Positions 2,681 to 61,800 of a stretch of DNA of 64,000 nucleotides are shown here, one piece after another. The position numbers were made by a program, and so were the translations under genes. Origin of the DNA: Lamellibrachia columna. Lineage: Eukaryota; Annelida; Polychaeta; Sabellida; Siboglinidae. A model generated the notes under the pieces. That model searched no databases, was not told where the DNA came from, and saw nothing but the letters and a program-made list of their open reading frames with translations. Location: positions 19,848,438-19,912,437 of the forward strand of contig OY759267.1 of assembly GCA_963662155.1 (NCBI GenBank), read 5' to 3'. Position 1 is the stretch's first letter; each line of letters begins with the position of its first letter.

Positions 2681-2684
2681 ATAA

Positions 2685-3471: not shown

Positions 3472-4828
3472 GGCGTAGGCGAAAAAAGGTGTGTTTCCGG
3501 TAACCCAACACTACCTAAAAAAACGGGCTGACCCTAATCTTTTTATTTGATATTTCAATCAATGTTCGTTTTGTTACATTTAGTTAGAACTAATAAAACA
3601 ACACTTGAGTAAAATTCGACCTTCGTATTCAATGACATGTGTGCACTACCGAACTTATTTGGGCCTGCAGGCGTGATTGGAGGGATCGTTAATATTTCAC
3701 CAAATAAGCGGTCTTGTTACACGCTGAATCACGTTGGCTAGGGATGGCAAGATGGCACTTGCGTCTCTAGTCTGCGTAATAAAACGCCAGTGCTTATTCC
3801 ACAGGAAAATCCTACTCGGAAATTTGTTATACTGTCAAACGAAATGTTTGACAGCATTACCAAAGAGTATGGCTGCAACGATGGATCGTGTGAAATCGCC
3901 ATGGCGGAACTGGAGGACGGACGTGTTGTTTACCTCGCCGACGCCAGTCATAAACGTGGTTATGGCACTTAGATGTAAATTCATCATGATCTCATGCACA
4001 CTGGATCCTGCCAATACCGGCCCTTCAAAGTGGCATCAGCTTTTAAGGAGCAAGCAGGCAAGGGCAGGGGCAAAATTTCTGGCAAGATGCCACCAAAACA
4101 CTTTGCAAAAGCTCCTGCTTCTAACGTCAAGCAACATGATGAGGACGACACGTCAAGCACACCTCACTGCGCAAACAGCCCGACTGCTCACAGAGTGTGT
4201 TGAATGTCAGAAAACAAGAGTTGTGTACGGCAGAAGCCAACTGTCAGAATGGCAGAAAACTATGTTTGCTATGCTACTGTCACAGCTTGACTACACTTGT
4301 GGTAGCCACATCACACCGCCGAGTCACTCACTGCATGGCATCGTCGTAGTTAGGATGGACATCAACTGTTCAAACCCAGTAGAAGCCTCATTCTACAGCT
4401 CTGCCCTGGGGCAAGGGAACATGTGATTTTACTCATTACTGTGGTGCAGACGGGGCTGAAAGAGACGTGAAGCTGAAACATAGTTTCAAAACAGAGTTTC
4501 CCATCTGTGCTGGGTGCAGCAGGGATGGCTATGTGAAAGCTGTGAATCGCAGTTGGAACATTTCTGGCGAAAGGGTGTTGCGTCACATTGTAATTTTTAA
4601 AGATTTAGTTTAACAGTATTCATTGTTTTAATTAAACTAACTTTATTACGTGATATCTACATTCAGCACTGACTATTGCCATTGGTACAGATGCTTTATT
4701 TTTATTTCAGTGTAATAAAGTGCATCGCATAAATTTACAGTAGTGTTAAAAAAATATAATAAAAAAATATTTCCGTACCTAAGTTTTTTGGGCCCGTTAC
4801 CTGAAACACAAAATGTTTTTGTTTAGGC
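3472..4828 (+). mobile_element. 1.36-kb DNA transposon with Cys-rich protein remnant
   Basis: The insertion splits the 40-bp minisatellite. CTAA stands on both sides (3468-3471 and 4829-4832), consistent with a 4-bp target duplication, although CTAA is also part of the repeat unit. The ends form an imperfect inverted repeat: GTGTTTCCGGTAAC near the left end, and GTGTTTCAGGTAAC when the right end is reverse-complemented. Inside is a broken coding region on the plus strand. It resembles an unclassified transposon-associated protein that I know from repeat families in invertebrates and fish. Confidence 0.65.
3734..4612 (+). pseudogene. frameshifted Cys-rich transposon protein
   Basis: Three plus-strand frames must be joined to read one protein. 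The first part, from about 3790 to 3972, includes PTRKFVILSNEMFD. The middle part continues to about 4426 and carries CVECQKTRVVYG, DYTCGS and INCSNPVEASFYS. The last part, about 4427-4612, carries HYCGADG and FPICAGCSRDGY. The spaced Cys pairs suggest zinc binding. The order and motifs fit a repeat-associated family whose biochemical role I do not know. Internal stops and at least two frame changes show that this copy is dead. Confidence 0.6.
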
Positions 4829-4902
4829 CTAAACACAAACTCTGTATGGCCTGGCCTGTGTTTCAGTGCTAAACACAAACTCTGGTCTGACCTATGTTTC
4901 AG
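4829..4902. repeat. 40-bp minisatellite, right block, abutting an exon
   Basis: Roughly two more units of the array seen at 2685-3471. The last unit ends in CCTATGTTTCAG at 4902, which is also the 3' splice site of the first recognised transglutaminase coding exon. Confidence 0.85.
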
Positions 4903-5124
4903 TAATGCCACTGCTTCTCGTGAAGAACGTTGACATGAATGCTGAGGAGAACTCAAAGATCCACCATACAACGGACTACGTGATTGCATCACCCCGGGTG
5001 ATAAGAGAGAACGTCACACCAGGGACGTTGATCGTGCGTCGGGGGACAGAATTCACGGTTAAGGTGCTATTTAACCGGCCCTACAATAAGGAGAAAGACC
5101 GGTTGCATTTCGTCTTTGAACTAG
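4903..5124 (+). CDS. transglutaminase exon 1 (first recognised coding exon)
   Basis: The acceptor TATGTTTCAG lies at 4902 and the donor G|GTGACT at 5124/5125 (phase 1). It encodes the start of the N-terminal domain: LLVKNVDMNAEEN, HHTTDY and TLIVRRGTEFTVKVLF are typical of the family. ATG 4905 is two bases into the exon and aligns near the usual family start. The strong acceptor before it means a 5' UTR or N-terminal exon probably lies upstream. Confidence 0.88.
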
Positions 5125-8100
5125 GTGACTAGTTAATGCCCTGCAGTGCTTCAACCAATAACTTATAGTAATAATATTTCAGTGCACAATATTGACCAAT
5201 CACCAAGAAATAACTAACGTCGAATGTTACCAGATCTAATGATAATTGTTACAATGAACTGCATTAGAAATCATATAGATTGTACTTCAACTACAGTCGA
5301 GCCTCGTTACTATGCAGGATTCAGATATAACGTGGTTGGTCGTGGATCCTGATTTTCTATGCCGGGGGGAACAGGAATAGCTGTCTTTTGGAGGGTCTTT
5401 TGCCCGTGTTCGTGTGCCAATGGTACGATCGCCGCACCAATCTATTTCCTGACTAGCTCTTGTTTTGCGTGATGTACTCCTCGTGTGTGTCAAACCTACT
5501 TAGAATTGCTTTGACAGTTCTCAATATGAACAAGTGGTGAGGTGTTGTTTCAGTGTTTGTTCAGCGCTGGCATCAATCCTTTATGCTGCTTGCTTCACCC
5601 ACACCTCAGTGGTTTGTAAATTGCAATCAAGATTCACAAATATGCCTTCAATAAGAATCAGTCAAATAGTCTTAAATGCTATTTAGTAGCCAACACCAGT
5701 ATGAAACGGGTGAAATGGCATACTTCTGTTGCATCGTAAATCTAAGTTTTTGTGGTGCCAAACCAAGCTCAAAGCAGTGTTATGGGTGCGCAAAAATCCA
5801 AATTCGTCATCTGCATATGAAACGGTGAATCAGTGGTACGGGAGATGTTCGTCGTGATTGTATTCGAGATCGGTTGAAAGACGAAGTAAAATAATTAATG
5901 ATGCAACCTATAATTGTTTTCAATGTTTAATCAGCTTTCACACTGCATGTTTGCTTACTCAGATCCAGGTTATTATTTTTGAATCAAATTAGTCAATCAG
6001 TCTGTACCAGTTCATCATAGCAAATTTATTCTATAACTGAACATGTGTATTTTATTCAGTTAAAAATTCAACAGAGTGTACTATTTAAAAAATAATACAC
6101 ATGAAGCTGTATTAACAGCGTATAGACTGCTCGACCAGCACACAGTGGCAGTGGCTTCTACAGCATTCTTGGTACTGGAGGGGGTGGAGATATCTGTTGT
6201 TTAATAGTGCCCTGGTGGCAGATATTGGAACACCTAACACGCTTCACTTACAACACAGTCTGAAATCGTGTACCCCGACCACCACGAGTATAACGAGGCT
6301 CAACTGTACAAACCTTATAGGCTAAACAAATTTGGAAAGAACTAAAAAACATTGGACATTATTCTGAAAATGTAGATGTTACTGTGTTTGGAAGTCCAAC
6401 TACGAATCAAATGCGAGTAAAGAAAAATTCAAATAAAATACGAGTATAGAAAAATTAAAATCAAATACGAGTAAAGACAAATTTATATAAAAATGGCTAA
6501 ATGATCTTAACATTTTGATGGAGACTGATGCGATCCATGAGAGACCCGTTTGTGACTAAATAGCTCTCTCTAAAACCCATTTACAAGGTATCGACATTGG
6601 CTTAGAAACAACACCTTGATCAGTGACAGATTTTTACCAGTCTTTTCCGGTGCAAATGAAGCTAGATGAGGTAGCAATTGAAGAGTCCTTTTAGTATCAC
6701 ACATTGGTATGCAAGACTATGTTGAAGTGCATGAATCTAGTGAGGTGATTGTGATATGGTTTGTGTTGACTCGTTCCAGCGGGTGATGTGGCAAAGGTGA
6801 GTAAGGCGAACCTCTTCTCGCTGGATGTCAAGGAAGGCCTCAAGTTTGCCAGCTGGAGCGTGTGCGTCGATAACGAAATCAAGGAAACGAGCACCGAGGA
6901 GTTGGCTGAACAGGAAATCATCATGGTCATGATGCAGCCTACAGACATGCCCCCCGTGGACCAGCCAACTCCCGAAGGAGAGACGGAGGAAAAACTGGCG
7001 GAAGAAATACAAGAGAAAGGAGAAGAGACGAAAGAGGAAGAAAATATTGAGGTGGAGGTGAACAGAGAAGATGAGAGAGTAAAGGTGCCCGTGGACACCG
7101 GCCATCGGTGGCAGTCATTTATTGTGCGCACGCCACCAGATTGCATTGTAGGTAGGTGGATGGTGAGCATCGACACGGTTGACAAGGCACCGACGAGTAG
7201 ACGCCAGAGAACGCTGCATCGCTTCACGTACAAGTATTCTCTGTATATTCTCTTCAACGCCTGGAATAGAGGTAATGTCTTGTTCTTGTAACTATTAGTT
7301 AATTATCAAACTAATTATTAATTAGTTACTGCCACACATGCTTGTGATTTTTTCACTTATATATATATATATATATATTATTTTTTTCACATGGATCTGC
7401 AGTCTAGAAACCTAAATATTGTGCAACACATTTATTATTATTTATTTATTGACATATTCAACTTTTTAGAACTCGCTGAGCACTGTGTGTGATTCAGGTC
7501 AGAATGGCAAGGGTGGGAACGCACATGCCTCACTTCATGTCTGCAATGTCAACAAGCTCTTAATGATCTTAATAAATAACCCATCTATGTAACATCGACC
7601 CTGCTGAGGAAGGGAAGTCATGTTTTCTTTTGAAAATGCCCGTAATTGAATCGCACACATGCATGCACGCGTGCTCAAGCACATCAAATGATACTGAATT
7701 CACGTATTAAGCCTGAACATTGCATACAATTTTCTACTTCTTAAGTATATAACAAGTGCACTGAGTTGAAGCAGTTCGCACTGGGCGTGTGGTTTGTTTC
7801 AGCGGACCAGGTGTTCATGGAGAATGCCAATTTGAGGGACGAGTATGTGTTGAATGAATTTGGGAAGATTGTGACAGGCAACTACAAACAGGTCACCGCC
7901 AAGCCATGGCTCTTTGGCCAGGTAGGACCTTCCATATCTTGGCAGTTCTCGGCTGGCATTAACATCCACTGCTAGTGTGATTAAAAAGGCTCATATGAGT
8001 CATAATTTCCATCACATCCAGCCAAGTTCTCGTTTCTTCAGCGGTGGTTACAAAGGCTGTTCAGACTCCTAATGACAAAAGTGAAAGTTTTTTCGACCGC

Positions 8101-11100
8101 AGTTTTCTAAATTATGTCCAACCGTTCATAGCTCAGCACTGATATTGGAATATATAATTGTTCTTCGGCATCCTACTGTCTCTGTTACAATTCACATAAA
8201 GACAGCAGTACTAAATTATATGTCCAACCATTCATAGCTAAACACTGGTATTTGAATATACAGTCGAACCTCGGTATTATGGTCACCCATGGGACTGCGT
8301 CAAAGTGACCATAATAGAGAGGTGACCTTAATAATGAATATGGCCACTGAAGCATCATAATAATAATAATAATACTATTTTTCTATAGCGCTAATTCCCG
8401 CATGGCGGATCGATGCGCTGTACAAGAAATATAATACATGTATATTAATAAATATAAATAGATAAACTGTAACTTATTAAAAATATCTATATATCTATAT
8501 ATGAACACTGGTTTTAAGACGTACAATACTAAAAAGAGGAATGTAAATTATATAAATAAAATTAAACTTTGGTTTTAAGACTTACAATGCTAAACCTTTG
8601 TATGTAAATTATATAAATTAATTTTAAACAAATTAAACACTGGTTTAAAGACGTACAGTACTATGTAAATTATGTAAACTAATATAAAAATAAATAAATA
8701 AATACTGTACCAAAAATGTGTATGTAAATTATATAAACTAAACTAAACTAATACTGTACTAACAATTTTTATGTAAACTATAAATTAATATAAAAACTAA
8801 ACACTAATTAAAATGTATATAACACTAAAAAGAAATTATAAAGCAATGTCCATCATTTCAAAACAATTTGAATTAATTAAAATGTCTAATAAAAAGATGT
8901 CTTTAAACACTTTCTAAACACAGAAAGTGTCCCCAATGCACGAATGTTCACAGGTAATTCATTCCATAGTCATGGTGCTGCTGCGCCAAATGCCGAATCG
9001 CCAATACACTTCTTTGTTATGCCTTGGTGCAGTGTTAGCGCATAGTTCTGGCGTAGGCGTCCGTCACGTTTTCGTGGTTGAACAAGTTCTGCAAGATAAG
9101 ACGGCGCCAAACCATTGATGCATTTATAAGTCATTACCAACATCTTGAAGGCGATTCGGCTCTCAACCGGCAGCCAATGCAGCTCCTTCAACACTGGTGT
9201 GATGTGGTCGTGTTTACTGGTGCGTGTTATTAGCCTGGCTGCATTGTTCTGGACACGTTGCAACCGGGCTGTCTGTGATAACCGTATGTTATGCAAGAGG
9301 GAGTTACAGTAGTCCAGGCGAGAGGTGACGAGTGCATTGACAGCACTTTTCGCGGCTTCAGTTGTTAAATAGTGCCGTATTGATGACAGTCTGTACAGAT
9401 GGTAGTTACATGCGGCACACACAGCAGTCACATGATCTGTCATCGTCAGATGTTGATCCATGTGAACTCCCAAATTCCTTATGCGATCTGATGGTGAAAC
9501 CGTATCGTCTCCGATTGTCAAGGAGCAGCCTCCGTACATCCTGAGATGATGTTTTGATGTAAAGATCATCATCTTTGTTTTTTCGTCGTTTAGTTTCAGC
9601 ATGCGCAGCGCCTTCCATTGTCTGGCTTCCCCAATACAGTTTGCGAGTCGCCTCGCAGTTTTCACTTGGTCGCCTGATGTAGCGGGATTGTACGACGCAT
9701 ATAGTTGAATGTCGTCGGCATACTTATGGTATTTTATGCCATGTCTTTTGAATATCTGCTGCAATGGGGTGGTGTATAGAGTAAACATAACTGGCCCAAG
9801 GACCGAGCCCTGTGGCACACCACTCTGTAGCGGAATAGTCGCGGATGTTTTTGAGTCTATCTTGACACAGTGGGTGCGGTCTTCCAAGTACATCCGGAAC
9901 CATGATAACGCTATTCCACACACACCGTATTCGTCGTGCAATAGTGTCAGCAAATGTTCATGGTTCACTTGATAAGTCCAGCATGACAAACAGCATTGCA
10001 CGATTCTTGTCGAGTACACTAGTAATGTCATGCTGAACACGCAGTAGAGCTGTTTCTGTACTGTGAAGCATCTTATATGCCGATTGGTATTCTTCATGCA
10101 GCCCATTCAAGGTGAGATGGTCAAGCAAACGACGAACTGCCACTTTCTCCAAGACTTTGCCGACGAATGCTATATTTGATACTGGTCTGTAGTTCTTTAA
10201 CATGTCTTTGTCGAGAGTGTCGGATTTCAGAAGTGGTTTTACTATTGCTGTTCTCAACGTGATCGGAAAGAGTACTTGCTTAAAGCTGTTATTCACTATT
10301 GCCACCAGATAAGGAATGTGCACACCAACTGTTTTCTTCAACAGATCAGTGGGGCAAGAGTCCAGGCTGCATGTCTTTGATGGGCATAGGCTGATGATGT
10401 TCTGCATTTCCTCTTCACTAGTAGGTAGCAGTCGATTGAGTTCGTTCGACAAACGTTGGCTTTGGCTGCCAGAGTCGATAGCACAACAAGAATACTCTTC
10501 GCCATTGGTCAGCTTTGTGTGTATCTGCATTCTAATTCCTTGTGTTTTCTCTGCAAAGTAGGTTGCGAAGTCATTGCACAGTGTTTCAGTGTTACTGGAT
10601 TGTGAATTATTCCCGGTGGGTTTAGCAGAGTGTTAACCACACGAAAGCATGTTCGCTGGTCAAGTGATGACAACACTGACTCGTAGTGAGCACGCTTCGC
10701 TCGCTTGATCATGTTGTTGACCGCTGTTCGATGCTCAACAAAAATCTGCCGATGCACCTCGAGTTTCGTTGTTCTCCATCTGTTCTCGTTTGCACGTCTT
10801 AATGCCCTGGCTTGATGAATGTCGTCATTGTACCACGGTTCCTTGCGTCGGCAAGCTTTCATTATCACAGTAACTGGGGCATGCAAGTCAATAGTGGATA
10901 AGACTGCATGCTCGTACTGGCCGACCATGGTATTCACATCTAGAGTAGTATCTATTGATGCAAGACGCGAAGAAAGGTCAGTTTCGAGGCGAACCAGATC
11001 AAGTCCGCGAAAATCACGCAGCTGTTTCATGACACGAGCAGACACTGGGCTAGCAGACGACAGACGGAAAACGACACTAGTGATCTGACTTGCTGTTCAG

Positions 11101-17100: not shown

Positions 17101-20100
17101 TCGGACAGCGTTTTTAATGTAGTTAGTTTTACAATTATCGTCTTAACAGAAGTATGGCAGAATGCCTGAACACGCCACCACAAAAGAAATTGAAGGGAAT
17201 CCCAGCAAAACAGAAATACAAAATGGAATATTCACATAAATGGCCAGTTCTTCAAAAGTCTAAGTTTAGTGGCAGTCACGTTTATTGGCAAATGTGTCGA
17301 GCCGATATTAACATTCGACTCAGTGGGTTGTACGACTGTCAAAAACATGTTGAATCAGCGTGGCACGTACAGGCCGCTGGCAAAGCATGTTCTAAAATCG
17401 ATACTTTCTTTTCAAAAGATACCGAATTTGTCACAATCAATGCTGAGACACTGTTCACATCATTTCTTATAGAACATAACATTCCAATGTCAGTAAGCGA
17501 TCACACCGGACCTCTTTTAAAAGAATGTTTCCAGATTCCAAAATTGCCACTCAATATGCCAGTGGCCGAACAAAGACAACTGCAATTGTGGAAACGCTTG
17601 CCAAGGAATGTGATTATAATATTAGCACCATTCTTCAGAAAGGACCCTACAGTATCGCTACTGATGCCAGCACAGATATGGAGAGCATAAAATTGTTCCC
17701 TCTTGTAGTGAAGTACTTTGACAGTAAACAAAGCAAAGTTATGTGCATGTTGTGCTTAGTGGAGTCCAGGGAGCCCATGACAGGGGAAAACTTTTTCGAA
17801 TTATGGACCATGCTTTGGAAGAACGAGGCATTACTTGGCAAAATTGCTTGAGTCTGGGAGCAGACAATGCCAATGTTATGCAAGGGCTACTCAAGGGAGT
17901 TGCTGCATTTGTGAAGCAGATTCAGCCAAGTGTGTTTGTGCTTGGATGTCCATGCCACCTCATGCATCTAGCAGCAGAAACAGCATGTAAACAGCTACCA
18001 GTTGTTGTTGAAGACATCTTAATTGATGTCTTTTATTACTTGGGCAAGAGTGCAAACAGACACCAAGACTTAGAAGGATTCCAGTCTCTGTGCGGGGTAG
18101 AAACCTGTAAGATGTTGACACATGTAAGCAACCATTGGCTGTCACTTGGAGAGTGTATTACCGGACTCCTAGAGCAGGTGGAACGTCTTCATGAATATTT
18201 CAAAGCTGAAATTATTCACAAAACGCTGAAGACAAAAACAGGTGTCAAATCTCAACAAACACAAAGTAGAGGTTCTGGTAAACGGAAAGATAAAAAACAT
18301 AGGAAAGGGAATGCTTCTCAGTCGTCCCCAAACTCTGAAAGCACTTCAAAGGACTCTTTCGTGAAGTCAAGCTGCAATACTGCAAGTAACCCCAGCAAGA
18401 TGTCTGACCATGGCCAAGCTAGCACCAAACACACTGTCACCAAGACAAACAGAGAGGACACTGCAAGCAACCCCAGCAAGATGTCTGACCATGGCCAAGC
18501 TAGCACCAAACACACTGTCATCAAGACAAACAGAGAGGACACTGCAAGCAACCCCAGCAAGATGTCTGACCATGGCCAAGCTAGCACCAAACACACTGTC
18601 ACCAAGACAAACAGAGAGGACACTGCAAGCAACCCCAGCAAGACGTCGGAACATGACCAAGCTAGCACCAAACACACTGTCATCAAGACAAACAGAGAGG
18701 ACACTGCAAGCAACCCCAGCAAGACGTCGGAACATGACCAAGCTAGCACCAAACACACTGTCACTAAGACAAACAGAGAGGACACTGCAAGCAACCCCAG
18801 CAAGACGTCTGACCATTGCCAAGCTAGCACCAAACACACTGTCACCAAGACAAACAGAGGACACTGCAAGCAACCCCAGCAAGACGTCGGAACATGATCA
18901 AGCTAGCACCAAACACACTGTCACCAAGACAAACAGAGAGGATACTGTAAGCAACCCCAGCAAGACGTCTGACCATTGCCAAGCTAGTACCAAACACACT
19001 GTCACCAAGACAAACAGAGAGGACACAGCAAGCAAAGTGAGCAGTGATTCTGTTAACAAGACTAGTAAGGACAGTAAAACTGGAAAAGACAACGGTGTTA
19101 AGGCGGTCACTTCCTCTCAGTGTATAACTCTGAAATGTTAACACCGATGTCGCCAAAACTTGCATGTTTAGCCCATGTGCATAGTTGTTTGAAGGAAATT
19201 TGTTTTGGGGACCACTCTAACTTGCACATACATATATATATACATACTGTACATACATACAGAGATATTGTGCGTTCAGATAACGTCAAGTGATAACAAG
19301 ACGGGACTGCTATTGAATGCGTGGACTGGTCAATACGGTGAGACGGGTGTGCCTCCGACTTCGTGGACAGGTAGCACATCAATTCTTGAGCAGTATTGGC
19401 GCACCAGGAACCCTGTAAAATACGGCCATTGCTACGTGTTTGCCGGGATCGCAACAACCAGTAAGTGCAACAGAATAAACTTCTGGTGCCTGTTTCACTT
19501 AGATTAAGTGAACATCCAGCATAAATTGGAATTATTCCTTAACTTTTATGAGCTTTTTGAAAATGCATTTTTCTAAGATGCTCATAAAATCTGTCGATAA
19601 GCATAGGAGTAAAATTTCCATCATAAGCTTGTCATTAGAAAAGAACATTTTGGGGTGATTTTAATTATGCATTCTTAGTAAAATTCACTTTTCATTGTTT
19701 TTCAAAACTTCCATTGCAAGCACCCTTTAATTTATTAAATCGTACCTCTTGTTGTGACTATTCGGTGATGATGCATGCCCTGATGTTGAAAGAATTCACC
19801 AGCGCCAGCTGTTGTTGACAGTCTGCAGAGCACTTGGCATTCCATGTCGACCAGTGACCACCTTCAGTTCTGCCCATGACTGTGACCGCCTGATGACCAT
19901 CGACACACACTGGTGCATCAAGGGCAACCCCATCCGACAGCTCAATGAAGACGCCATCTGGTGGGAGTCATTTTCATCAATACTCCACCAAATTAACCAA
20001 AAGTGCCAGGCATTAATTATTTCTAGGTAGAATGATGACAGAAGCTTAATTCATGGTTGGCTTTGGCAGTAACAAAGTTATTTTTGGCATGAAAGATATC

Positions 20101-26100: not shown

Positions 26101-29100
26101 TACACAGTAGCTTGGTGCTGGGGGTGACATCTCAAAGAAACAAATTCAGTGATGAGTATCAAGATTACAACTGCTGATAATATGAGAGAGAGCACTTAAT
26201 AAAGATTGAAAGCATCTTGGTGTATTTGTATCATGGCACAGATGGATGGCAGAAAGATGGTGGGATGAGAAAAATGTGTGTTGATCTTTTGTGCAAAGTA
26301 GTTATCTCTACAAAATAGAGAAACACAGCGCAGTTTAAATGAAACAAAGGACAATCTGTCCATCAGTCCATCGAAGAACATCAACAATGTCCATCAATTT
26401 ATGACCAACATAAAATCTGTCAAATTCTCACGAACGTGCACATAAATATGCTGCCATGCAAAAATAGCACAAATAATTGTACGGACATTGGAGACATTTG
26501 TTACAATCACTTTACATCATCGTACGTTATATTTTATCAAATGCGCTAACTTTGACAGACGCATTTTCCGACGAGATAAATCTATTTACGTTACACATAC
26601 TATTAAATGGTGTCAGCAAAGGTAACGTAACACACACGTGTGTATGCTTCCTATGTCATCACTTTTGTGGCTATTTTTTCTGGGAACTACCACACAGTTT
26701 CTTGTTCGTCATTTCTTGACAGATTGATCTGCTGCAGTAGTTTACCATTGGCATTTCATTTTACCAAGACTGGAAAAGAAAACTGATTCACATAACTAAT
26801 ATTATAAATCGGCAGCGATAGAGAGCATAATGTTGATTTCCTGCCATATTTTACTATGAGTATTGATAGAGATCTAAAAAAAAAATTTTTGACAGACACA
26901 CTTGACGTACGTGAACAAGCCAAATAAAAAATTGCAAAAAATTTATGCACATTTCCAACTAAAGTGGTGTGAAATTGATACACATTTCCAACTAAAGGGG
27001 TGTGAAATTGATACACATTTCAAACTAAAGGGGTGTGAAATTGATACACATTTCAAACTAAAGGGGTGTGAAATTGATACACATTTCAAACTAAAGGGGT
27101 GTGAAATTTATACACATTTCAAACTAAAGGGGTGTGAAATTATGAAGAAAATACATTTGTCTCTGTAAAACATTTCTTTTACTCACTGTACCGTTGTGTC
27201 TTCTAGTGCCGTTGTTGGATATGGTGTGTATTGGTGGGGCCTGTTGCGCATTGCTAAGTTTATGTAACAATAGAAAAAACACATTATGGTTGGTAAAATG
27301 GCAATGCCCTTTAATTACACATAGTAAAACAGTCATATGCATGACAGTATGTATTGCCTAATTAGATATTAAAAGCAATTCCCCTTTCCTAGTAATAACA
27401 AGTGGTGCTTATCTGTCGATGGGATCGCCAATAATTAACTGGCTAAGTGTAATAAATGTGGGGCCCAGAAATCACCACTACTGTAGATCCAACAAATAAC
27501 GGCACTGTTGCAGAACTTGGGGAAGGAGGGTGGGAAAGTTAACAAAAGAAGAGCGACAATGTATACCCGGTACACTGCTTCCGTGAGTGGCCAGTGAAGT
27601 CTGCTGGCTGGATCGCTCTAGCAGTGATTTGATGATGCCTCGCCGCTTTGTGCTGTGATACCATATAAGGAGTTGTGTTCTGTGTCCCGATAACGCCCCG
27701 TTACCTGACACTGCTCTGTTGCATTCCAGACTAGTGACAAAGGTAGACCGTCTAGCCCCCCGCCCCCCTGTACATAGGCAGGCACGTTGCGTAAAAGGTA
27801 TTATAATTCATGCTGTATTAAATAGTGATTTATTGCATGAATCTGTGATTGCCAAACAAATTTTTTAGCCGTATGTAAATGACCTTCGTGAGCATGTCGC
27901 AAAACGGACATGACTTTTTCACCACTTTTTGTTAGTTAAACATGAAAATAGGAAAAACTAAACCTTTTTACACAGCAAGGCTTGTTTTTCCTGTTACATA
28001 ACACTTATAGCTTATAACATGACAGAAGGAAAAACATAGATTAGGTTCTTATAAATTGTTATGGCATGAGATGCAAACACTACCACATGGTATACAAATA
28101 TAACACATTACCATGCTTTTGCTCATACACATGTTTATTTCGGTGACATTTTGAGCCAGGATTGTGACGGAAAATTATAACAAACAAAAAACGAATAGGC
28201 ATGACGACAGTTCTAACATTTCCTTATAACTGTAATCCATAGCTGGTTAACTTTTAATTGACTAAATTGTATTGAATGTTCAATCCACTGTGAGGTTTTG
28301 TGTGTATCTGGTCCATGCAGGACAGGAAAGGTGTTATACACAAAGAAGGCACGTCCGTCAAACAGACGATTTCTTGCCATTCGTACGATGAAGATAAGTG
28401 ATACCAAAGACCTTGATGACATCACGACACACTACAAATTTCAGGAAGGTACACTATTATTTTTGTATGATATATACCCCAAGCGACCCTAATGCAGGAG
28501 TTTTTTTAGCGAGTTTTACAGATCGAGATCACCAGCTCTGTGAGTTTATCCCCTGTGTAGGATCTTTTACTTCCCCTGGCGTAGACAACAGGTAGAAGGG
28601 ACCAACAGCCTTTATTGTCTCATCTGAAAGACACAGACAAAGTGGGGTGAAAAAATTGCCCAAGTTTTGAAACGGCAGCAGATGGACTCGAACCCTGGTC
28701 CTCTCGATTGACAGTCCAATGCTCTAAGGACTCGAACCCTGGTCCTCTCGAATGACAGTCCAACTCTCTAAGGACTCGAACCCTGGTCCTCTCGATTGAC
28801 AGTCCAACGCTCTAAGGACTCGAATCCTGGTCCTCTCGATTGACATTCCAACGCTCTAAGGACTCGAACCCTGGTCCTCTCGATTGACAGTCCAACGCTC
28901 TAAGGACTCGAACCCTGGTCCTCTCGATTGACAGTCCAACGCTCTAAGGACTCGAACCCTGGTCCTCTCGATTGACAGTCCAACGCTCTAAGGACTCGAA
29001 CCCTGGTCCTCTCGATTGACAGTCCAATGCTCTAAGGACTCGAACCCTGGTCCTCTCAATTGACAGTCCAACGCTCTAAGGACTCGAACCCTGGTCCTCT

Positions 29101-32100
29101 CGATTGACAGTCCAACTCTCTAAGGACTCGAACCCTGGTCCTCTCGATTGACAGTCCAACGGTCTAAGGACTCGAACCCTGGTCCTCTCGATTGACAGTC
29201 CAACTCTCTAAGGACTCGAACCCTGGTCCTCTCGATTGACAGTCCAACGGTCTAAGGACTCGAACCCTGGTCCTCTCGATTGACAGTCCAACGCTCTAAG
29301 GACTCGAACCCTGGTCCTCTTGATTGACAGTCCAACGCTCTAAGGACTCGAACCCTGGTCCTCTCGATTGACAGTCCAACGCTCTAAGGACTCGAACCCT
29401 GGTCCTCTCGATTGACAGTCCAATGCTCTAAGGACTCGAACCCTGGTCCTCTCAATTGACAGTCCAACGCTCTAAGGACTCGAACCCTGGTCCTCTCGAT
29501 TGACAGTCCAACTCTCTAAGGACTCGAACCCTGGTCCTCTCGATTGACAGTCCAACGGTCTAAGGACTCGAACCCTGGTCCTCTCGATTGACAGTCCAAC
29601 TCTCTAAGGACTCGAACCCTGGTCCTCTCGATTGACAGTCCAACGGTCTAAGGACTCGAACCCTGGTCCTCTCGATTGACAGTCCAACGCTCTAAGGACT
29701 CGAACCCTGGTCCTCTTGATTGACAGTCCAACGCTCTAAGGACTCGAACCCTGGTCCTCTCGATTGACAGTCCAACGCTCTAAGGACTCGAACCCTGGTC
29801 CTCTCGATTGACAGTCCAACGCTCTAAGGACTCGAACCCTGGTCCTCTCGATTGACAGTCCGACTCGAACCCTGGTCCTCTCGATTGACAGTCCAACGCT
29901 CTAAGGACTTGAACCCTGGTCCTCTCGATTAACAGTCCAACTCTCTAAGGACACGAACCCTGGTCCTCTCGATTGACAGTCCAACGCTCTAAGGACTCGA
30001 ACCCTGGTCCTCTCGATTGACAGTCCAACTCTCTAAGGACACGAACCCTGGTCCTCTCGATTGACAGTCCAATGCTCTAAGGACTCGAACCCTGGTCCTC
30101 TCGATTGACAGTCCAACATCTAAGGACTCGAACCCTGGTCCTCTCGATTGACAGTCCGACTCGAACCCTGGTCCTCTCGATTGACAGTCCAACGCTCTAA
30201 GGACTCGAACCCTGGTCCTCTCGATTGACAGTCCAACTCTCTAAGGACACGAACCCTGGTCCTCTTGATTGACGTCCAACTCTCTAAGGACACGAACCCT
30301 GGTCCTCTCGATTGACGGTCCAACTCTCTAAGGACACGAACCCTGGTCCTCTCGATTGACAGTCCAATGCTCTAAGGACTCGAACCCTGGTCCTCTCGAT
30401 TGACAGTCCGACTCGAACCCTGGTCCTCTCGATTGACAGTCCGACTCGAACCCTGGTCCTCTCGATTGACAGTCCAACGCTCTAAGGACTCGAACCCTGG
30501 TCCTCTCGATTGACAGTCCAACTCTCTAAGGACACGAACCCTGGTCCTCTTGATTGACGTCCAACTCTCTAAGGACACGAACCCTGGTCCTCTCGATTGA
30601 CGCTCTAAGGACTCACTCCAGTTTCTGGTCAAGCTCCTTGTAAATCTCCAAGTTAATTATCAGTGCCTGAAGTGCATTACTTTTTGCACCACTGTGTCAT
30701 CACACTGAGGCAATCTGATGCTGCAGCATCCTAGCTGACATACGGGTTAATGAGACCTTCAAGGTTTCCCTCTGTATAAGGCATGATGGATTCAGAGTAC
30801 AAGTCATATCTAATAACATAAAAATGTCTTGGAGCAGGCCTAAGACGTTACATACCTGACTAGGGATGATCTTAAAACACTGATATTTTAAGAAAAACAT
30901 TAGTTTCAGGGGGTAGCAGCTGTTTGACTTATACATACATCAATGTATTTTTTCCAAAAAATATCAGGTTTTTGTGATCACAGTTCATAAGGGTATTGAT
31001 TACATGCGCATGAATAGCTGACTGTTATTCTGTAAACATGCTGTTTCTATGCCTGTTGCATGTTCAGGCTCCGAGGAAGACCGTAGCGCCATCTACAGGG
31101 CCGATGTTGCTGCCTGTCACGCTGGACTCGTTGATTTGGGAAAGCCGGTCAGTGCTGTGTAATCTGTGTGACGGCCATTTACAGTGCAAGACACGGTATT
31201 GACGGTGGACAAAGATAGCACTGTCACGTATACTGGGGTCTTTTGTGGGATGACTGAACCATAAGAACAAGCCTAAGATGGTGGTTACAGCTGAGTAGCC
31301 TTGATCGAAAGACAGTTTCAGTTTAGCGATATGTCTGCTTGCAAAAACAGCAGATTCACCGTCTTTAGGTGTGCATGTCTCCACTGATGAATAACTGTGA
31401 ATGAGAATACTTTTATGAACATGTAATTTAGTTATTTATTTATTATAATTATATTTATTTATTAGTGTTAATCGAATACTCTGTTTTATTATATATTTTT
31501 AGCTATGATATATATTTATTATTTTTATGATTCCATGTATGTTTTGTATGCGCCCATGAATGGACTGGTCCTAGATATATGGCGCTTTATCAGTTTTAGT
31601 AATAATAATAATAATAATATACACATGGTCATTGCTAAGTATCTGTTGGGGAGGCTCTTTGACAAGAGATCAGTTTATCGAAAGGAGAAGGCGGAAAAAC
31701 ATTTTGTGTCCAAACAAAATTCTTTTGTATTGCATATATGTGCAGCTTTTGAAATGCCGCAGTTTACATTACATTTTTTTAATAATAATTTGAATCATAG
31801 CCCATTATATCTATGAATCCTGACAAGAAATATATCGGAGTCTGCATCACCGAACATGACTTTCCAGTGTCTGTGTGTAGGATGTAAAGTTTGAGATCAA
31901 GCACCTCGATGATATTGTCATCGGCAATGTCTTTGACATCATTGTAAAAGTACAGAACCAGAACCGAAAGTGGCGTACCATCAACCTGACACTCGAGCTG
32001 TTCACGGCCTACTACACGGGCGTCCAGAAGAGTCGCATTAAGTATGAGACATTCCACTTTGAGCTCGACGCCATCAAAAGTATGTACACCATTGTCTGGG

Positions 32101-40953: not shown

Positions 40954-41043
40954 TTATCTGTTGTCCTCGACAATGATGGTTCTACGTGGGTAGTCGTCCA
41001 GCTCAACAAATATGTATCGAAATTCGTACTTCCCTCGTTCGTT
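40954..41043 (-). CDS. TIMM21: TIMM21 exon 6 (terminal)
   Basis: Minus-strand acceptor TTGCTTTCAG precedes 41043; stop TAA is at 40956-40954. It encodes NERGKYEFRYIFVELDDYP, then RRTIIVEDNR, the conserved C-terminus of the family. Confidence 0.95.
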   Translation of the reverse strand, partial: NERGKYEFRYIFVELDDYPRRTIIVEDNR

Positions 41044-41530
41044 CTGAAAGCAACGTAACAGAATGCCTTTCCAACAACAACAAAAGTGAATCAATGTGGA
41101 ATTTTAATTGACAGATTCTGAGTCTGACATTACAATCCTAATTATGAGCTTCACCTTAGCAACCATGTTTACATATAATACAGTACATTACTAGGGTGGT
41201 ATATATCTGCCAGACCAAACCTTCCCACATACTATTCTAGCTGAAACAACGTTACTCTGTGTTTTCGTTACAAAGACAAACGTCCGAGAGCGGTGGCCAT
41301 GTTTGTTAGCATAGTTGCTAGGATACAGTCGCGTGATGGATCCGTCAATTGAGCAAGTGGTATGATGCTCTCTGTTCACGGGCTATGAAGCACAATCTCT
41401 CAGCTGGGAGATCATTTATAGATACATTACTGAAATACTAACCTAAACTGTTGTTCGAAGCTAATAACTTACTGTCAATGTTAAGTTGGCACCTTGCGTA
41501 ACACACGCACGCATGCAAGCACGCATGCAA

Positions 41531-41578
<48 letters not shown>

Positions 41579-44500
41579 GCACGCACACGTACACACACAA
41601 TTCAACTTGTTATTTGTTATATTATGACAATACTATGGAAATTACTTACCTTCCTTGCTTCAAGATGGACGGTGCCTTTGCGATGTGGCCCTTCCAGGTA
41701 GAACTTCATTCTCATGTGCTTCACTCCCTCCTTCTCATACTCCATATTACTGCAGACACATCAAACACAACTTCATTCTCATGTGTTTCACTCCCTCCTC
41801 ATACTCCATATTACTGCAGACACATCAAACACAACTTCATTCTCATGTGTTTCACTCCCTCCTCATACTCCATGTTACTGCATGCACAGCAAGCAACTTC
41901 ATTCTCATGTGCTTTACTCCCTCCGTATACACCATTTTACTGCATACACATCAAACATAACTTCATTCTCATGTGTTTCACTCCCTCCTCATACTCCATG
42001 TTACTGCATGCACAGCAAGCAACTTCATTCTCATGTGCTTTACTCCCTCCGTATACACCATTTTACTGCATACACATCAAACACAACTTCATTCTCATGT
42101 GTTTCACTCCCTCCTCATACTCCATGTTACTGCATACACAACAAGCACAACTTCATTCTCATGTGCTTCACTCCCTCCTCATACTCCATGTTACTGCATA
42201 CACAGCAAGCAACTTCATTCTCATGTGCTTTTCTCCCTCCTCATACTCCATGTTACTGCATACACAACAAGCACAACTTCATTCTCATGTGCTTCACTCC
42301 CTCCTCATACTCCATGTTACTGCATACACAGCAAGCAACTTCATTCTCATGTGCTTTTCTCCCTCCTCATACTCCATGTTACTGCATACACAACAAGCAC
42401 AACTTCATTCTCATGTGCTTCACTCCCTCCTCATACTCCATGTTACTGCATACACAGCAAGCAACTTCATTCTCATGTGCTTTACTCCCTCCTCATACTC
42501 CATGTTACTGCATACACATCAAACACAACTTCATTCTCATGTGTTTCACTCCCTCCTCATAATCCATGTTACTGCATACACAACAAGCACAACTTCATTA
42601 TCATGTGCTTCACTCCCTCCTCATACTCCATGTTACTGCATACACATCAAACACAACTTCATTCTCATGTGCTTCACTCCCTCCTCATACTCCACGTTAC
42701 TGCATACACAGCAAGCACAACTTCATTCTCATGTGCTTCACTCCCTCCTCATACTCCATGTTACTGCATACACATCAAACACAACTTCATTCTCATGTGC
42801 TTCACTCCCTTCTCATACTCCACATTACTGCATACACAGCAAGCACAACTTCATTCTCATGTGCTTCACTCCCTCCTCATACTCCATGTTACTGCATATA
42901 CAGCAAGCACAACTTCATTCTCATGTGCTTCACTCCCTCCTCATACTCCACGTTACTGCATACACATCAAACACAACTTCATTCTCATGTGGTTCACTCC
43001 CTCCTCATACTCCATGTTACTGCATATACAGCAAGCACAACTTCATTCTCATGTGCTTCACTCCCTCCTCATACTCCATGTTACTGCATACACATCAAAC
43101 ACAACTTGATTCTCATGTGCTTCACTCCCTCCTCATACGCCACGTTACTGCATACACAGCAAGCACAACTTCATTCTCATGTGCTTCACTCCCTCCTCAT
43201 ACTCCATGTTACTGCATATACAGCAAGCACAACTTCATTCTCATGTGCTTCACTCCCTCCTCATACGCCATGTTACTGCATACACAGCAAGCACAACTTA
43301 ATTCTCATGTGCTTCACTCCCTCCTCATACTCCACGTTACTGCATACACAAGCACAACTTCAATCTCATGTGCTTCACTCCCTCCTCATACTCCACGTTA
43401 CTGCATACACAGCAAGCACAACTTCATTCTCATGTGCTTAACTCCCTCCTCATACTCCACGTTACTGAATACACAGCAAGCACAACTTCATTCTCATGTG
43501 CTTCACTCCCTCCTCATACTCCACATTACTGCATACACATTAAACACAACTTCATTCTCATGTGCTTCACTCCCTCCTCATACTCCACGTTACTGCATAC
43601 ACAGCAAGCACAACTTCATTCTCATGTGTTTCACTCCCTCCTCATACTCCACGTTACTGCATACACAGTAAGCACAACTTCATTCTCATGTGCTTCACTC
43701 CCTCCTCATACTCCACGTTACTGCATACACAGCAAGCACAACTTCATTCTCATGTGCTTCATTCCCTCCTCATACTCCATGTTACCGCATACACATCAAA
43801 TACAACTTCATTCTCATGTGCTTCACTCCCTCCTCATACTCCATGTTACTGCATACACAGCAAGCACAACTTCATTCTCATGTGCTTCACTCCCTCTTCA
43901 TACTCCATGTTACTGCATCAAACACAACTTCATTCTCATGTGTTTCTCTCCCTCCTCATACTCCACAATTTTACATACACAAATTCTGTGTCCCTCAACT
44001 TGAATTCATCAATTATAATATACACTGTATTCAGCAGGTATATTTTAACCAAGTACAAAACAGTGCAAAATGTCTAACTATGCTAAACTGATCATAATGT
44101 GTACCCATAAAAAAGTACTTTAAAAACATACCAAAACTAATTTGGTACAACACAGCATTATCTTAATCTGAACTGAACAAAAATCACCAGAGATTCTTCC
44201 ACAACAAGGCACTTTATGCACCCTCGTTTTCTACCCCAGTCACAACGTACCTGACATATCTGCGTCGACCTCTTCTTGTCATTTCCCCATAGGCCTTCAT
44301 TGGCTGCCCGAACGTATCGACCACCTGATGCAAGAAGGGAGTAGATAGCACACGAACAAGAAACACACTTCTGAATAACGGGAATGTACAACAAATTTCA
44401 TTGGTTAACTGAGTTTGTTGGGTATTTTGCATAATTAATATGTCCCAATTCTCTTAATTATAACTAAGTGTAAGCACTGTAAGTGATGCCTCGAATTTCC

Positions 44501-46730
44501 TAGGAATGGAAGCGTATTTGCTAACCAAACTTCCTTTCTTTTTCAATACTATTACTCGTATCGAAAATTGTATATAAGAATGATTGTGCAAAAAGAAAGT
44601 GTAACAAAGGCTTATTCAGCCTCACTAGTGTCAAATTCGAAGGCCAAATATTATGTTACAATATTAACCATTTCATATTTTTGAAACAAGAATTAACATT
44701 TTGTTACCTCATAACTTTTCCGGCAGAGTTTAAAAGCTTTGCTATAGACGCCGCTTGGACTTTGTGACGAGAAGAGCTCGCGTCCAACGGCATAAAACAT
44801 GAGACCTGCAACAAACCTAGACCGTTACATCACCGAAACACAGGAACAAACACAAGGAACATAACATGCAACACACACAGGGTTTTTTAAGGTTCAGCTC
44901 ATACTGGCAGTGCGAGGTTCAATACAGGAACATTTTTTTTTACAACTGGTTTACCTTAAGATGGTTGCCATCCAATGTTATTACCATCAACCCAAAACGA
45001 AAATCAACATTTTCAAGATGATTATATACCTACTGTGTTTTGTGAATTGTGACTGGAATATTTTTGTTTCAATTAAAAATTATAAAACCAATGCCCAAAA
45101 GATTGGAAACTCACAAAATGTGCTTAGCAATATGATCATACTAGCAAAATACAATTGAAGTAAACAAAGAAAAGGTCAGACAATGCAACGATCAATAACA
45201 GAATGTAATACAAAATTAATATTCCAAAATGGTGACATCATGTGAGTGCCTCATTATCATTTGAGATTTGAACCTTATCGGGTTATAAAAATTGCCAAAT
45301 TACAGCATTGAAAGGCAATGGGCGGCAGGCTGGCTGTATGCACAAATATGTGGTTGGGCGTTTTAAAACTAATTATGGAAAGCTTTAAAACTAATTATGA
45401 TCATCATTAGTAGATGGAGTAACTCTTTTCTTGAAGTGAAGATTCATAAAAATTTCGTACGGGCAGAGCAATTTGCCTATGTCTGACGCCTTAAAAAAAG
45501 CCCTGGACATGCATGAAGTGTTGCAGGCAGGTTATGATATCTGTAACAGAATAGGAAATGAACAAAAACAGTTCTAAACATATATCTAAACCATAGGAAC
45601 TGTGATTATATTTGTTCAACCAATATAATCACAGAAAACATGACATCTGTGACATATTAACAAACCCAAACAATGACGTGTGACATAGAAACATGCAGAA
45701 CATGACAAACAGACATGACATGCACCTCTACTAACAAATCATGTTACAAGTCTTTAAATTCTGCAATTCCCTCTCCTATAAAAAACAATTACTGCTCTAT
45801 TTGACAAAAAAGCATTTTGTTTATCTAAACAATTATGTATATACACCCGCATGCATCCATGTATGAACAGTGTACTCACATGTGACACCAACACCCACGA
45901 CAATGATGCCTGTGTAAGTCGCATCTTTTCCCACCCTGGTAACTGTCGGAAGAAATAAAAGAAATAAACCAAGGATGGTATACAACATAATCATTACGAC
46001 AGCAACAGTCATTGCAAGAAAACGATTTTGGATTACGAAGTTAAGCTTTGCATTGCTTACTATAGACTTGTAATGCTGCAGGAGGGCAGAGTATCTCTCT
46101 AACATTATGTGGACAATTTGCCCAGTCCGAAAATAACCTTATATTACAGTTGTTCTGTTTCTGTAACAAATAGGTGTAATAATGTTACTTTTCAACATTT
46201 CAGTAAATTCATGATTTATAATTGATCAACATTTTCTTATATGTATGCCACAATATTTAAATTAATTGTACGTTATGTTGCATTTCTACCCAAAAATCGC
46301 ATTATAATGTAATCTGTGATAAAACATGTCAACAAAAACAATTAGTTTTCTCCCCATGGCCACTGGCACTGGTCAAACATTTTACTCCCTAGAAATATGC
46401 AGTGTTTCGGCCCTTCAAATAATCAGTCACAAGTCATAAGGTAATATATATACCTTTTTGGCCTATGGTTAATTCAGAAAATGTTTTCTGCTCAGTTGCT
46501 TCGACAATCTGCCGTTGTGTCTGGTTGCTTTTAGACTTCGGTACAGGTGTCCTGCGTGCAGAACTTGTATGCAGCAGTTTTCGACAACCTCTCTTCTCCG
46601 ACACTACCACTTCTCTACGACCCAGTGAATTGATGGGAAGGCATGCTTCACTTTTAGACAGAGACGATAAGAAACAATAGCTGCATTTGTCAAAAGTTGT
46701 CAAGGTTTGACGGATACGTCGTGCCGCCAT
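40954..46730 (-). CDS. TIMM21: TIM21, subunit of the mitochondrial TIM23 presequence translocase, 6 exons
   Basis: A single-pass inner-membrane protein that links TOM to TIM23 and helps respiratory-chain assembly in animals. Exons (minus): 46730-46454, 45942-45880, 44805-44708, 44324-44251, 41749-41650 and 41043-40954. They sum to 702 nt (233 aa; human 248) with matching phases throughout. Residues 1-30 are basic, hydroxylated and lack acidic residues (MAARRIRQTLTTFDK), as in a matrix presequence. One membrane helix lies at about 97-117 (GIIVVGVGVTCLMFYAV). The intermembrane-space domain follows, with RELFSSQSPSGVYSKAFKLC, FGQPMKAYGEMTRRGRRRYV, MKFYLEGPHRKGTVHLEA and YEFRYIFVELDDYPRRTII. The gene is convergent with the transglutaminase and divergent from UTP4. 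Confidence 0.95.
41503..41592. repeat. (CACG)n microsatellite in TIMM21 intron 5
   Basis: A run of GCACGCAC tetranucleotides with some GCAA units. Confidence 0.9.
41650..41749 (-). CDS. TIMM21: TIMM21 exon 5, with its 5' end amplified upstream
   Basis: Minus-strand acceptor TGTGTCTGCAG ends at 41750; donor AAG|GTAAGT is at 41650/41649. AG from exon 4 plus T gives Ser, then NMEYEKEGVKHMRMKFYLEG and PHRKGTVHLEARK, aligning with EY.KDG.KH...KFY.EG...GTV of human TIM21. This copy has an extra AAG (Lys) that the array copies lack, which marks it as the one continuing into coding sequence. Confidence 0.94.
41705..43980 (-). repeat. 64-bp minisatellite built from TIMM21 acceptor plus exon-5 start, ~35 copies
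   Basis: On the minus strand each unit reads TTGTGCTTGCTGTGTATGCA G | TAACATGGAGTATGAGGAGG GAGTGAAGCACATGAGAATG AAG: the intron end with its AG, then the first ~43 nt of exon 5. The copy nearest 41705 runs on into the rest of the exon. The others are followed by another unit. The plus strand has no stop in any frame of the unit, which creates a spurious 725-codon open frame. A few units are 2-3 bp shorter. Confidence 0.95.
43981..44250. other. TIMM21 intron 4, distal part
   Basis: Unique intronic sequence between the minisatellite and exon 4. Confidence 0.6.
44251..44324 (-). CDS. TIMM21: TIMM21 exon 4
   Basis: Minus-strand acceptor TTGCATCAG at 44325; donor TCAG|GTACGT at 44251/44250 leaves phase 2. 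It encodes VVDTFGQPMKAYGEMTRRGR then RRYV. This is the FGE...GYGE.TRRGRR signature of the family. Confidence 0.95.
44708..44805 (-). CDS. TIMM21: TIMM21 exon 3
   Basis: Minus-strand acceptor GTTTGTTGCAG before 44805; donor GAG|GTAACA at 44708/44707. It encodes the end of the membrane helix (LMFYAV), then GRELFSSQSPSGVYSKAFKL and CRKSYE. Confidence 0.94.
45880..45942 (-). CDS. TIMM21: TIMM21 exon 2
   Basis: Minus-strand acceptor TTCTTCCGACAG before 45942; donor ACAT|GTGAGT at 45880/45879. It encodes VTRVGKDATYTGIIVVGVGV, the start of the membrane helix. The exon is 63 nt. Confidence 0.9.
46454..46730 (-). CDS. TIMM21: TIMM21 exon 1
   Basis: ATG 46730-46728 was chosen over the in-frame ATG at 46790 because the sequence from MAARRIRQ onward forms a typical presequence and TAATGG gives a reasonable start context. 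The donor AAAAAG|GTATAT is at 46454/46453 (phase 1). The exon holds the presequence and a Gln/Thr-rich matrix linker. Confidence 0.85.
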
Positions 46731-46790
46731 TACGGCGCAAGGGGGCGACAGCAAGCGACTGATGGTAGGACATCCGAAATACATGGTCAC

Positions 46791-58800: not shown

Positions 58801-61800
58801 TTGATAAAAAGGTGTTGTCTGTGGTGTATGTAATGCTGGTGTTGATCATGCAATGTGTTCGTGTATTTTTTTAAATCATCTATCTGTGCTTGTCTGTGTT
58901 GGAAGGTTACTATGAGTAAAACAATTTTGAAAATAAAATAGAAAAAATCCCCACCGCAATTCATAATGTGTGGTGGAAACTGCATGTATGTTTAGAATAC
59001 ATTTCCATACAACATTTCCATCAGTTGGTTTATTATTCCGTGTTGAAATACTAGAGAAATGGTTATATGTCACCAATTCACTTAGTTGGCGTAGAAACTT
59101 ATGTGGCTGTAACTTAGAATCCATGTCCAACTAGTTAGCACTGGACTGGCATTGTTGGGAACAAATGGAGGATTGTGAAGTTTGTAGACTGGACATTCTT
59201 AGGTACCGGTAGATAGAAATAACTAGAAACTGTATCATTTTGGACAACACAAAGATTTTTATATTATGTAATAATGAAGAGCAATCGGCTTCGTTTTGCT
59301 CTTTCTGAGCTGTAACCTATTTAAAATAATTTTTTTTAGCTTTTTGTAAAAATCCGTAATTGACATGTCTTTGGCAGGTGTCGACTGTCAACTGATCGTC
59401 AATGAGCTGCAGCTGACGCAAGGCATCCGCATGTGTCGGCATCATCCCCCAATACCACATGTAGGTACCCGACATGTGTTGGCATCATCCCCCAATACCA
59501 CATGTAGGTACCCGACATGTGTCGGCATCATCCCCCAATACCACATATAGGTGCCCGACATGTGTCGGCATCATCCCCCAATACCACATGTAGGTACCCG
59601 ACATGTGTCGGCATCATCCCCCAATACCACATGTAGGTACCCGACATGTGTCGGCATCATCCCCCAATACCACATGTAGGTACCCGACATGTGTCGGCAT
59701 CATCCCCCAATACCACATGTAGGTACCCGACTTGGGGTCAATTACATTATATCAGTTCCAATTACACGCCAATTACAAATTCCAACCCCACCTCAATATA
59801 AACGCATTTACCTAAGTAAAACAACCCCGTTCAGAAATAAAAAATATGAAATATTTTTATGACCAGTTTCAGACATTGCAGTGACGTCACAAACGTATTG
59901 CAACCCACAATCGCAGTTTTATTCTTAGCTGACAGGTGTGTATATTGTCTATTGTTTGGTTGTGGCCAATTGGCAATGCAGTATCAGTTAAGTTGGTGCA
60001 TCTGCTATATACAATGACTGTTGTTTCAGATTCCTCTCGTACACACAGCCAAAGCGGTCAAGATGGTTCTCCTTCAATACGCCACTGACCTAGAACTGTG
60101 GCGACTCGGCTCCACGGACAAGATATCAGGTGGCGTAGTTTCGTCTACCAAGATTTCTTGTACCAAGTCTTCATTTATGATGCTCAGTGATTCTGGTTTA
60201 CTGTGCCTCTGAGCTCGATTCCCTGGGGATTTAGGCGTTATTGAAGTAGCATTACTATATTCTGCATTGATTATGTACTGGCCTAATGGCGCTGTTCATG
60301 AATGCTGTTTTAAGTTTAATTCCATATCATGAAATAATTAGCACTTTTTCATTTAAATAAAAAAAACTGCCTTCTGCTCTCAGTGATGGTAAATTATTGT
60401 GTTTTGGAAAAGTTCCCAAATACCATTGAAGTCCATACCTCGATGTGACCTTATTAATGGATATGTCATAGTGTAAAGTTTAGGCCAGTTTGATTTAATA
60501 ACTAATTGTATTAAGTCATTAGGACGCAATTAATCGATATATTAAACACCTAGATTGACAACAGAAAGACGGTTCAAAAAGGATGTAGCTTAACCACCCA
60601 AGTGGATATTGTCAAAGTCTGTATGTGCCAATGATTGATGATAATATTAAAGAATTTCCTTAATCCCTTCAGGGAAACAAATAACGCCATTTTTAATCCT
60701 GGCATTTGCTAAATTGCTTTGACCTTGGAGATCGATGAAATTCGGGAAACAGAAAAGCCCAGGGAACCCTGGACTGGCCCAGCTCCAAAAGTTAATTTGC
60801 AAATTTGGCATGGGCACTTCCAGAAGACATCACAGTCCAGTGATTAATAGTGTGGTTTGGCAAGTTGAACCAATGGGAAGGCGTACCGGGTACTTATGCT
60901 ATTGTAGCTCCTGTAACGACGGCATCTGAATTGTGTAAACTCAAGAGTATATTATCCCCTGGATGAGGGATTCCGAGTCAACACAAAATGGGTACTAATG
61001 TCCAATGCTTGTTAAAACGTGTCTTGTTGGTTCAGTTGGCTGTCTTATCGCCAACTTATGTACATGATTAAAATCAACTCATCGAACCTGGAAAAATGCA
61101 TTGCCTACACTTGTGTAGAACTAAATGTACTCATTGGTAGAGTTAGTACTCATTGGTAGAGGTGAATAAAAATATGTCGTTAATAAATCTCAACCTGGCA
61201 ACCATTGCATACGGCCCAGCATAGGGTTAATATGGGAAGCTATATCTTACAATGGGTTTTAGAGCAAAAGCAAATGAATGGCCTATATATGTGATGTGCA
61301 ATGGCACGTATAAATGAACTGACTGGCTTCTCTGTTGTAGAGAAGGACGGAGAGATTCTGCCCCTCTCATTAAACCCCCTCAAACTTCTGCAGTTGACTT
61401 CTCACCACGATGAACATATTGTCACCAGCGCCATTTCCAGTGATGGTTGCTCTATTGCCTACTCGGACAGACACTGTTTCCGACTGTTCAGCCTCACCAT
61501 GGTTTGTCACCTTCATGGTTACAACAGGGTCCATACGGGGCCCTGACAATTTTGATATGAAGTAACAAAATGGCGACTCCTATATCATCATTCTTTAGGA
61601 ATTCTGTCATTTCTCTGGCAACATCAGACTACCAGTTGTTTTGTGCGATCACATACCATAATGTCAGGTTCACTGTGAATGGTCTCTTATGTTGCATACT
61701 TTTTTTTCGTCCTTTTCCCATTTCTTTCCATTCTAGGAGGTATTGACTCGTACATCTGTACCAGAAAGAAACACTGCACTTACATTACAAAAAATGTATC

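Follow-up and report, generated by a model that had tools for sequence, protein, structure and literature searches.

We report that the boundary between intron 4 and exon 5 of the TIM21 gene of the annelid Lamellibrachia columna is present as an array of 36 tandem units, and that exon 4 thus faces 34 acceptors, i.e. 33 decoys and the true one (all positions below refer to the window, which is the whole 64,000-nucleotide stretch of DNA that was analysed). The array probably represents a boundary minisatellite, a so-called 'mirage', which has expanded near-neutrally and in which the true exon is chosen by exon definition. Arrays of this kind are known as such, while the phylum and the large copy number are apparently new for mirages. 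The locus offers a natural competition test of splice-site choice in a gene for mitochondrial import, where a single correct acceptor competes with 33 nearly identical decoys.

The TIM21 gene was rebuilt from the window sequence. Six minus-strand exons, exon 1 (46454 to 46730, counted from the Met used in this reconstruction), exon 2 (45880 to 45942), exon 3 (44708 to 44805), exon 4 (44251 to 44324, ending in phase 2), exon 5 (41650 to 41749, 100 nt) and exon 6 (40954 to 41043, including the stop codon), join into an open frame of 233 residues; an in-frame Met further upstream of exon 1, near 46784, agrees with the start of the Ridgeia model. The product covers the whole Pfam TIM21 profile PF08294 (positions 1-145 of 145; 158.3 bits versus a cut-off of 24.1; E 1.5e-46) and is weakly matched by solved TIM21 chains (best E 2.4e-5). 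The complete six-exon frame and the whole-profile match confirm that the gene is TIMM21, as stated in the original prediction, which also placed the exon 4 donor correctly at 44250, where it begins next to exon 4. The top one of 59 protein matches is from Ridgeia piscesae (79% over 91% of the query), and 13 of the 59 were aligned together with the query. Lamellibrachia satsuma was not named among these 59 matches, many of which are nameless, in a search that limits length. According to their tags (NP493_18g10000 and NP493_18g10014) the Ridgeia TIM21 and UTP4 models are on one contig. A tubeworm-like TIM21 (P0002), encoded on a 1519-bp contig, reads exons 2-6 in a single frame and differs in sequence from the window. 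The public Ridgeia TIM21 model (P0001) departs from the exon 6 frame that the window shares with P0002 and with further TIM21 proteins, and from this comparison P0001 is probably mis-spliced at its C-terminus.

The array is located at 41702 to 43965 on the minus strand, where TRF gives a period of 64, 35.6 copies and 91% matches. When the minus strand is divided at each exon core, 36 units result, 35 of which lie upstream of the true exon within intron 4; the copy number is that of one haplotype, as assembled. A normal unit is composed of the 19-nt tail of intron 4 ending in CAG, GTGCTTGCTGTGTATGCAG, followed by 45 nt, TAACATGGAGTATGAGGAGGGAGTGAAGCACATGAGAATGAAGTT, which represent the start of exon 5 with a single codon missing. 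The exon-side unit, u36 (41702 to 41768, with the true acceptor TGTCTGCAG), is the sole unit that runs on into exon 5, and it alone carries an extra AAG (Lys) codon (0 of the 35 others); YEKEG is read in both Ridgeia piscesae P0001 and P0002, i.e. the Lys codon is common to the relatives. All of this agrees with the initial description, which was of about 35 near-identical 64-bp copies of an intron end plus exon 5 head with a single Lys-bearing copy continuing into the exon. The number of acceptors facing exon 4, given there as about 35, had to be corrected to 34: the acceptor AG is kept in 33 of the 35 upstream units, the exceptions being the outermost one (u01, 43926 to 43985) and one unit that reads CGG.

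Two side observations concern the array sequence itself. The only inner unit in which AG is changed to GG, u04 (43793), acquired through this change the array's highest-scoring donor-like site, GCG/GTAACA (4.8 bits by the splice-site matrices described below). The plus strand has an antisense ORF of 728 codons (41485 to 43671) that spans the array; it is mechanical and no gene, since with a unit of 64 nt an open frame passes through all three frames in turn. When 190 residues of a plus-strand array ORF were used as query, a protein search gave no match at E 0.01 among 6328 candidates, which carries little weight as such ORFs are not genes. Among bacterial and archaeal genome contigs, 38 pattern matches to related loci were obtained and none was confirmed.

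Joining exon 4 to each of the 33 AG-bearing decoys leads to a stop in every case, after 22 residues in 27 of them, after 21 in one and after 29 in five, the last because the next unit is 62 nt and the frame is shifted. The full TIM21 frame is obtained only via the last acceptor (41749). The expectation that any distal acceptor gives an early stop and that the last one alone yields TIM21 therefore holds, with the length to the stop revised from about 20 codons to 21-29 residues (mostly 22). The decoy stops sit ahead of the exon 5/6 junction. In animals, a stop ahead of an exon junction usually sends the RNA to decay, and products of wrong-acceptor joining are therefore likely to be degraded.

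How the true site is chosen is not evident from the acceptors. Using approximate matrices made for animals other than this one, the true exon-5 acceptor scores 4.5 bits and has the lowest value among the five acceptors of the gene (the others 6.7-9.3), the acceptor of the penultimate unit, u35 (41769 to 41832), has an equal score, and the remaining decoys range between 0.8 and 4.1 bits; the choice is therefore not accounted for by the strength of the acceptors. With the same matrices for other animals, the exon-5 donor AAG/GTAAGT (at 41649) is the strongest of the five with 12.1 bits (the others 5.0-10.5), and GT sites within the array have at most 2.6 bits, except the one at 4.8, which is near the weakest real donor, that of exon 1 (5.0 bits). 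We consider it likely that the exon is defined by its donor, which takes the nearest upstream acceptor, and that this explains the choice of the true site.

From the observed anatomy, stops, Lys codon and relative scores we infer a course of events that involves a duplication mechanism, exon definition, decay and a displaced branch point. The 64-nt stretch of intron 4 tail and exon 5 head would have been duplicated in tandem, and either unequal exchange or slippage may then have enlarged the array, pairs of units being copied jointly as blocks. The 35 upstream units, as part of intron 4, would evolve like intron sequence, the exon-touching unit being the real one. In the pre-mRNA, the exon-5 donor would be recognised and paired with the nearest upstream acceptor to give the 100-nt exon, while the decoys, having hardly any adequate donor within the length of an exon, would be passed over. 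Any use of a decoy would meet the early stop before the exon 5/6 junction and end in RNA decay, such that leakage would be unproductive. Because a unit has just 19 nt of intron tail, the former exon sequence of u35 probably contains the exon 5 branch point; the motif YTNAY is a poor guide here, as exon 5 has it only at A -12 and exons 3 and 4 have none within 60 nt. Against this scheme stands u35, equal in score and 64 nt away, since exon definition must favour an exon of 100 nt over one of 164 nt. If the exon-5 donor takes the nearest acceptor, u35 would be the likeliest site of leakage.

Divergence among the units bears on the history of the array. Units two apart are more similar (0.939) than neighbours (0.911), a lag-2 value reached by 0 of 2000 shuffles; similarity is likewise raised at lags 3, 4, 5 and 7 (p from 0.0075 down to 0.0005) and not at lags 1, 6 and 8. 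Mean identity to the other units ranges from 0.74 to 0.94 and is lowest for u01 (0.738), which is the most diverged and without AG, as would be predicted if its acceptor had ceased to be needed. The inner units mostly have 0.89-0.94, with u31 (0.871) and u33 (0.858) also low. For the 34 inner units, the mean minor-letter frequency is 0.068 in the intron tail and 0.031 in the exon-derived part. There is no clear sign of coding constraint in this small sample, where 5, 4 and 6 of 15 columns are variable at codon positions 1, 2 and 3, respectively; the distinct variants comprise 5 silent and 15 changing ones versus 17 and 118 possible (plain counts, no transition weighting). The absence of AAG in the 35 upstream units and its presence in P0001 and P0002 make it probable that the copy from which the array expanded was already without the Lys codon, which the exon retained.

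Moreover, the window has a second clear boundary array, in UTP4 (cirhin), 18 kb away and of opposite polarity. It consists of seven 43-bp units (59430 to 59731, plus strand; TRF), each with the end of exon 9, the donor and the start of the intron, and exon 9 (59378 to 59460) ends inside the first array unit, as judged by the junction in the Lamellibrachia satsuma protein P0060. This protein, possibly a gene model that lacks RNA support, reads PPIPH/IPLVH over the exon-9 junction. The identity of the gene follows from collinearity with P0060 in 14 exon blocks on both sides of the array; 9 of the 14 blocks are 94.6-100% identical in tblastn, and the alignments of the other five overrun the exon ends and are less identical. 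The joined UTP4 query is 94% identical to the L. satsuma UTP4 over its whole length, and the human UTP4 chain 7mq8_LN also matches (E 7.9e-24). With Ridgeia piscesae nearest in TIM21 and L. satsuma nearest in UTP4, the proteins place the DNA in a siboglinid tubeworm of or near Lamellibrachia, and amphioxus was rejected as its source. The donor CAT/GTAGGT is intact in six of the seven units, and the frame is kept by the first donor only, the other five intact donors leading to stops. TIM21 and UTP4 thus form a mirrored pair, many acceptors versus many donors, in which the exon-touching copy alone keeps the protein frame; this fits the prediction of exon definition, unlike a choice of the shortest intron.

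The large number of acceptors might alternatively act as a dial, diverting pre-mRNA to unproductive forms such that array length sets TIM21 output. The retained AG in 33 of 35 upstream units, each of which as a decoy gives a stop before the exon 5/6 junction, speaks for this idea, which we nevertheless regard as improbable. The retention is unexceptional, in that the CAG columns of the inner units (minor-letter frequencies 0, 0.029 and 0) vary like many exon-derived columns, and a young homogenised array would keep its AG without need of selection. Decoy use is without any sign here, and the UTP4 array, which has the other polarity and belongs to a gene unrelated to TIM21, points to a mutational process of a general nature and not to a TIM21 regulator. 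The original interpretation is accordingly upheld in part: anatomy, stops and gene are borne out, and of its two readings the choice of the last acceptor fits better than the tuning of TIM21 output, given that the exon-5 donor is the strongest and that the array has almost no usable donor. That interpretation did not recognise the structure as one of a described kind, nor the further arrays of the window in UTP4 and, probably, in a transglutaminase gene.

It is quite improbable that the copy number, or the whole array, was made by misassembly, even if one mirage was misassembled in the draft according to the amphioxus globin paper (PMC3087553). The units differ (0.74-0.94) and show an ordered two-unit pattern, which a mechanical repeat of one read would not give, and a second array with another unit is present in UTP4. 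Stepwise splicing, or small cassette exons formed via weak donors inside each unit, is highly improbable: GT sites do recur (GGA/GTATGA in 30 places, GGA/GTGAAG in 20), but these two have at most 2.0 bits versus 5.0-12.1 for the gene's five real donors by the matrices above, and the acceptor is followed by T (TAA) where a recursive site needs GT.

The preferred reading, a near-neutral boundary minisatellite with the true exon set by its donor, finds its closest counterparts in amphioxus. For the globins BflGb6 and BflGb9 and for Adh3, minisatellite copies of an intron/exon boundary were termed mirages, and RT-PCR suggests that regular splicing is undisturbed (PMC3087553). There, BflGb6 has repeats of the intron 3' end and the 5' part of exon 2, like TIM21, and BflGb9, with a unit of 157 bp, has repeats of a 3' exon boundary, like UTP4 (PMC3087553). 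The amphioxus arrays likewise have many copies with splice signals, and edge copies escape homogenisation (PMC3087553). In our window, the units span an exon-intron boundary both in TIM21 (19 + 45 nt) and in UTP4 (exon end plus donor), many but not all splice signals are kept (33 of 35 upstream AG and 6 of 7 donors, respectively), and the raised lag-2 similarity together with the low identity of u01 points to homogenisation that leaves out edge copies, but u31 and u33 are low too. The differences are that the host is an annelid and not a cephalochordate, that TIM21 has 36 units compared to 6 and 3 in two BflGb6 haplotypes, that its unit is 64 bp compared to 150-160 bp in the amphioxus globins and 10-72 bp in Adh3, and that splicing was tested by RT-PCR in amphioxus while the TIM21 array is described here from genome sequence (amphioxus data from PMC3087553). 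Mirages are thereby carried from amphioxus to an annelid, and they may occur widely while escaping gene prediction.

Intron gain is reportedly also possible by tandem duplication of sequence that bears splice signals (the Rogers model, cited in PMC3087553). TIM21 shares the tandem duplication but has no new intron; a new intron within a former exon was not found, as the six exons form an uninterrupted, complete frame and the array is located within intron 4. Human internal tandem repeats at exon-intron boundaries, boundary minisatellites as in TIM21, affect splicing patterns; they occur in genes that were duplicated recently and can give rise to new introns or to alternative transcripts, whereas in TIM21 an old boundary was multiplied and is apparently still used once (PMC2812944). 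In two further papers, PGBD5 repeats are likened to mirages with troponin C also mentioned (PMC3902484), and intronic motifs in minisatellites are found near alternative splicing in C. elegans (PMC4039745). The Ridgeia genome paper (PMC9921365) does not use the term 'minisatellite' in its main text, and among the openly licensed papers listed by literature searches none was recognised, from its title and abstract start, as a description of annelid arrays of this kind, which is weak evidence of novelty.

A third boundary array is probably present in front of a transglutaminase exon on the plus strand, going by the sequence. An array of 38-40 bp units (2682 to 3472; TRF), 10 copies of which end in TTTCAG, precedes the exon, and inspection of the sequence reveals two more such units (4829 to 4902) that abut its probable acceptor. 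The exon (4903 to 5124, ends inferred from AG and GT) encodes Transglut_N (Pfam E 2e-15 on 4905-5129) and had no PDB match at E 0.001. The case is just probable because the unit, in which the acceptor is present, has no clear exon sequence and the exon start is unproven.

Counting loci with a unit of at least 30 bp and at least five copies, and taking the two transglutaminase arrays as one, three of the six minisatellite loci of the window carry a junction, one of the three only probably. With the TIM21 array left out, the probability that at least two of the other five span a junction is 0.021 for 65 junctions (10 in TIM21, 27 in UTP4, partly approximate, one in transglutaminase and 27 guessed) and 0.0075 for 38, for a small post hoc sample in which one of the two is only probable. 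That vestimentiferan genomes often form such arrays, preferentially at splice junctions, is a tentative and rather doubtful proposal. If true, it would mean that a mutational process tied to splice junctions is common to amphioxus and annelids, and that the spliceosome ignores dozens of equal decoys through exon definition alone.

Finally, the window has other repeats and elements. A 44-bp array of approximately 45 copies (28684 to 30601) resembles, on visual inspection, a portion of a tRNA or of a tRNA-derived element (minus-strand sequence GGTTCGAGTCC); ARAGORN with the bacterial code and Rfam found no tRNA or Rfam content in the window, this array included. An 81-bp (27-codon) array of eight copies (18379 to 19035) is open in the frame of the ORF at 17728 to 18897, for which there was no Pfam match. 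On the minus strand, reverse transcriptase ORFs at 8970 to 11096 indicate a LINE-like element (RVT_1, E 6.2e-15 for 8970-10106).
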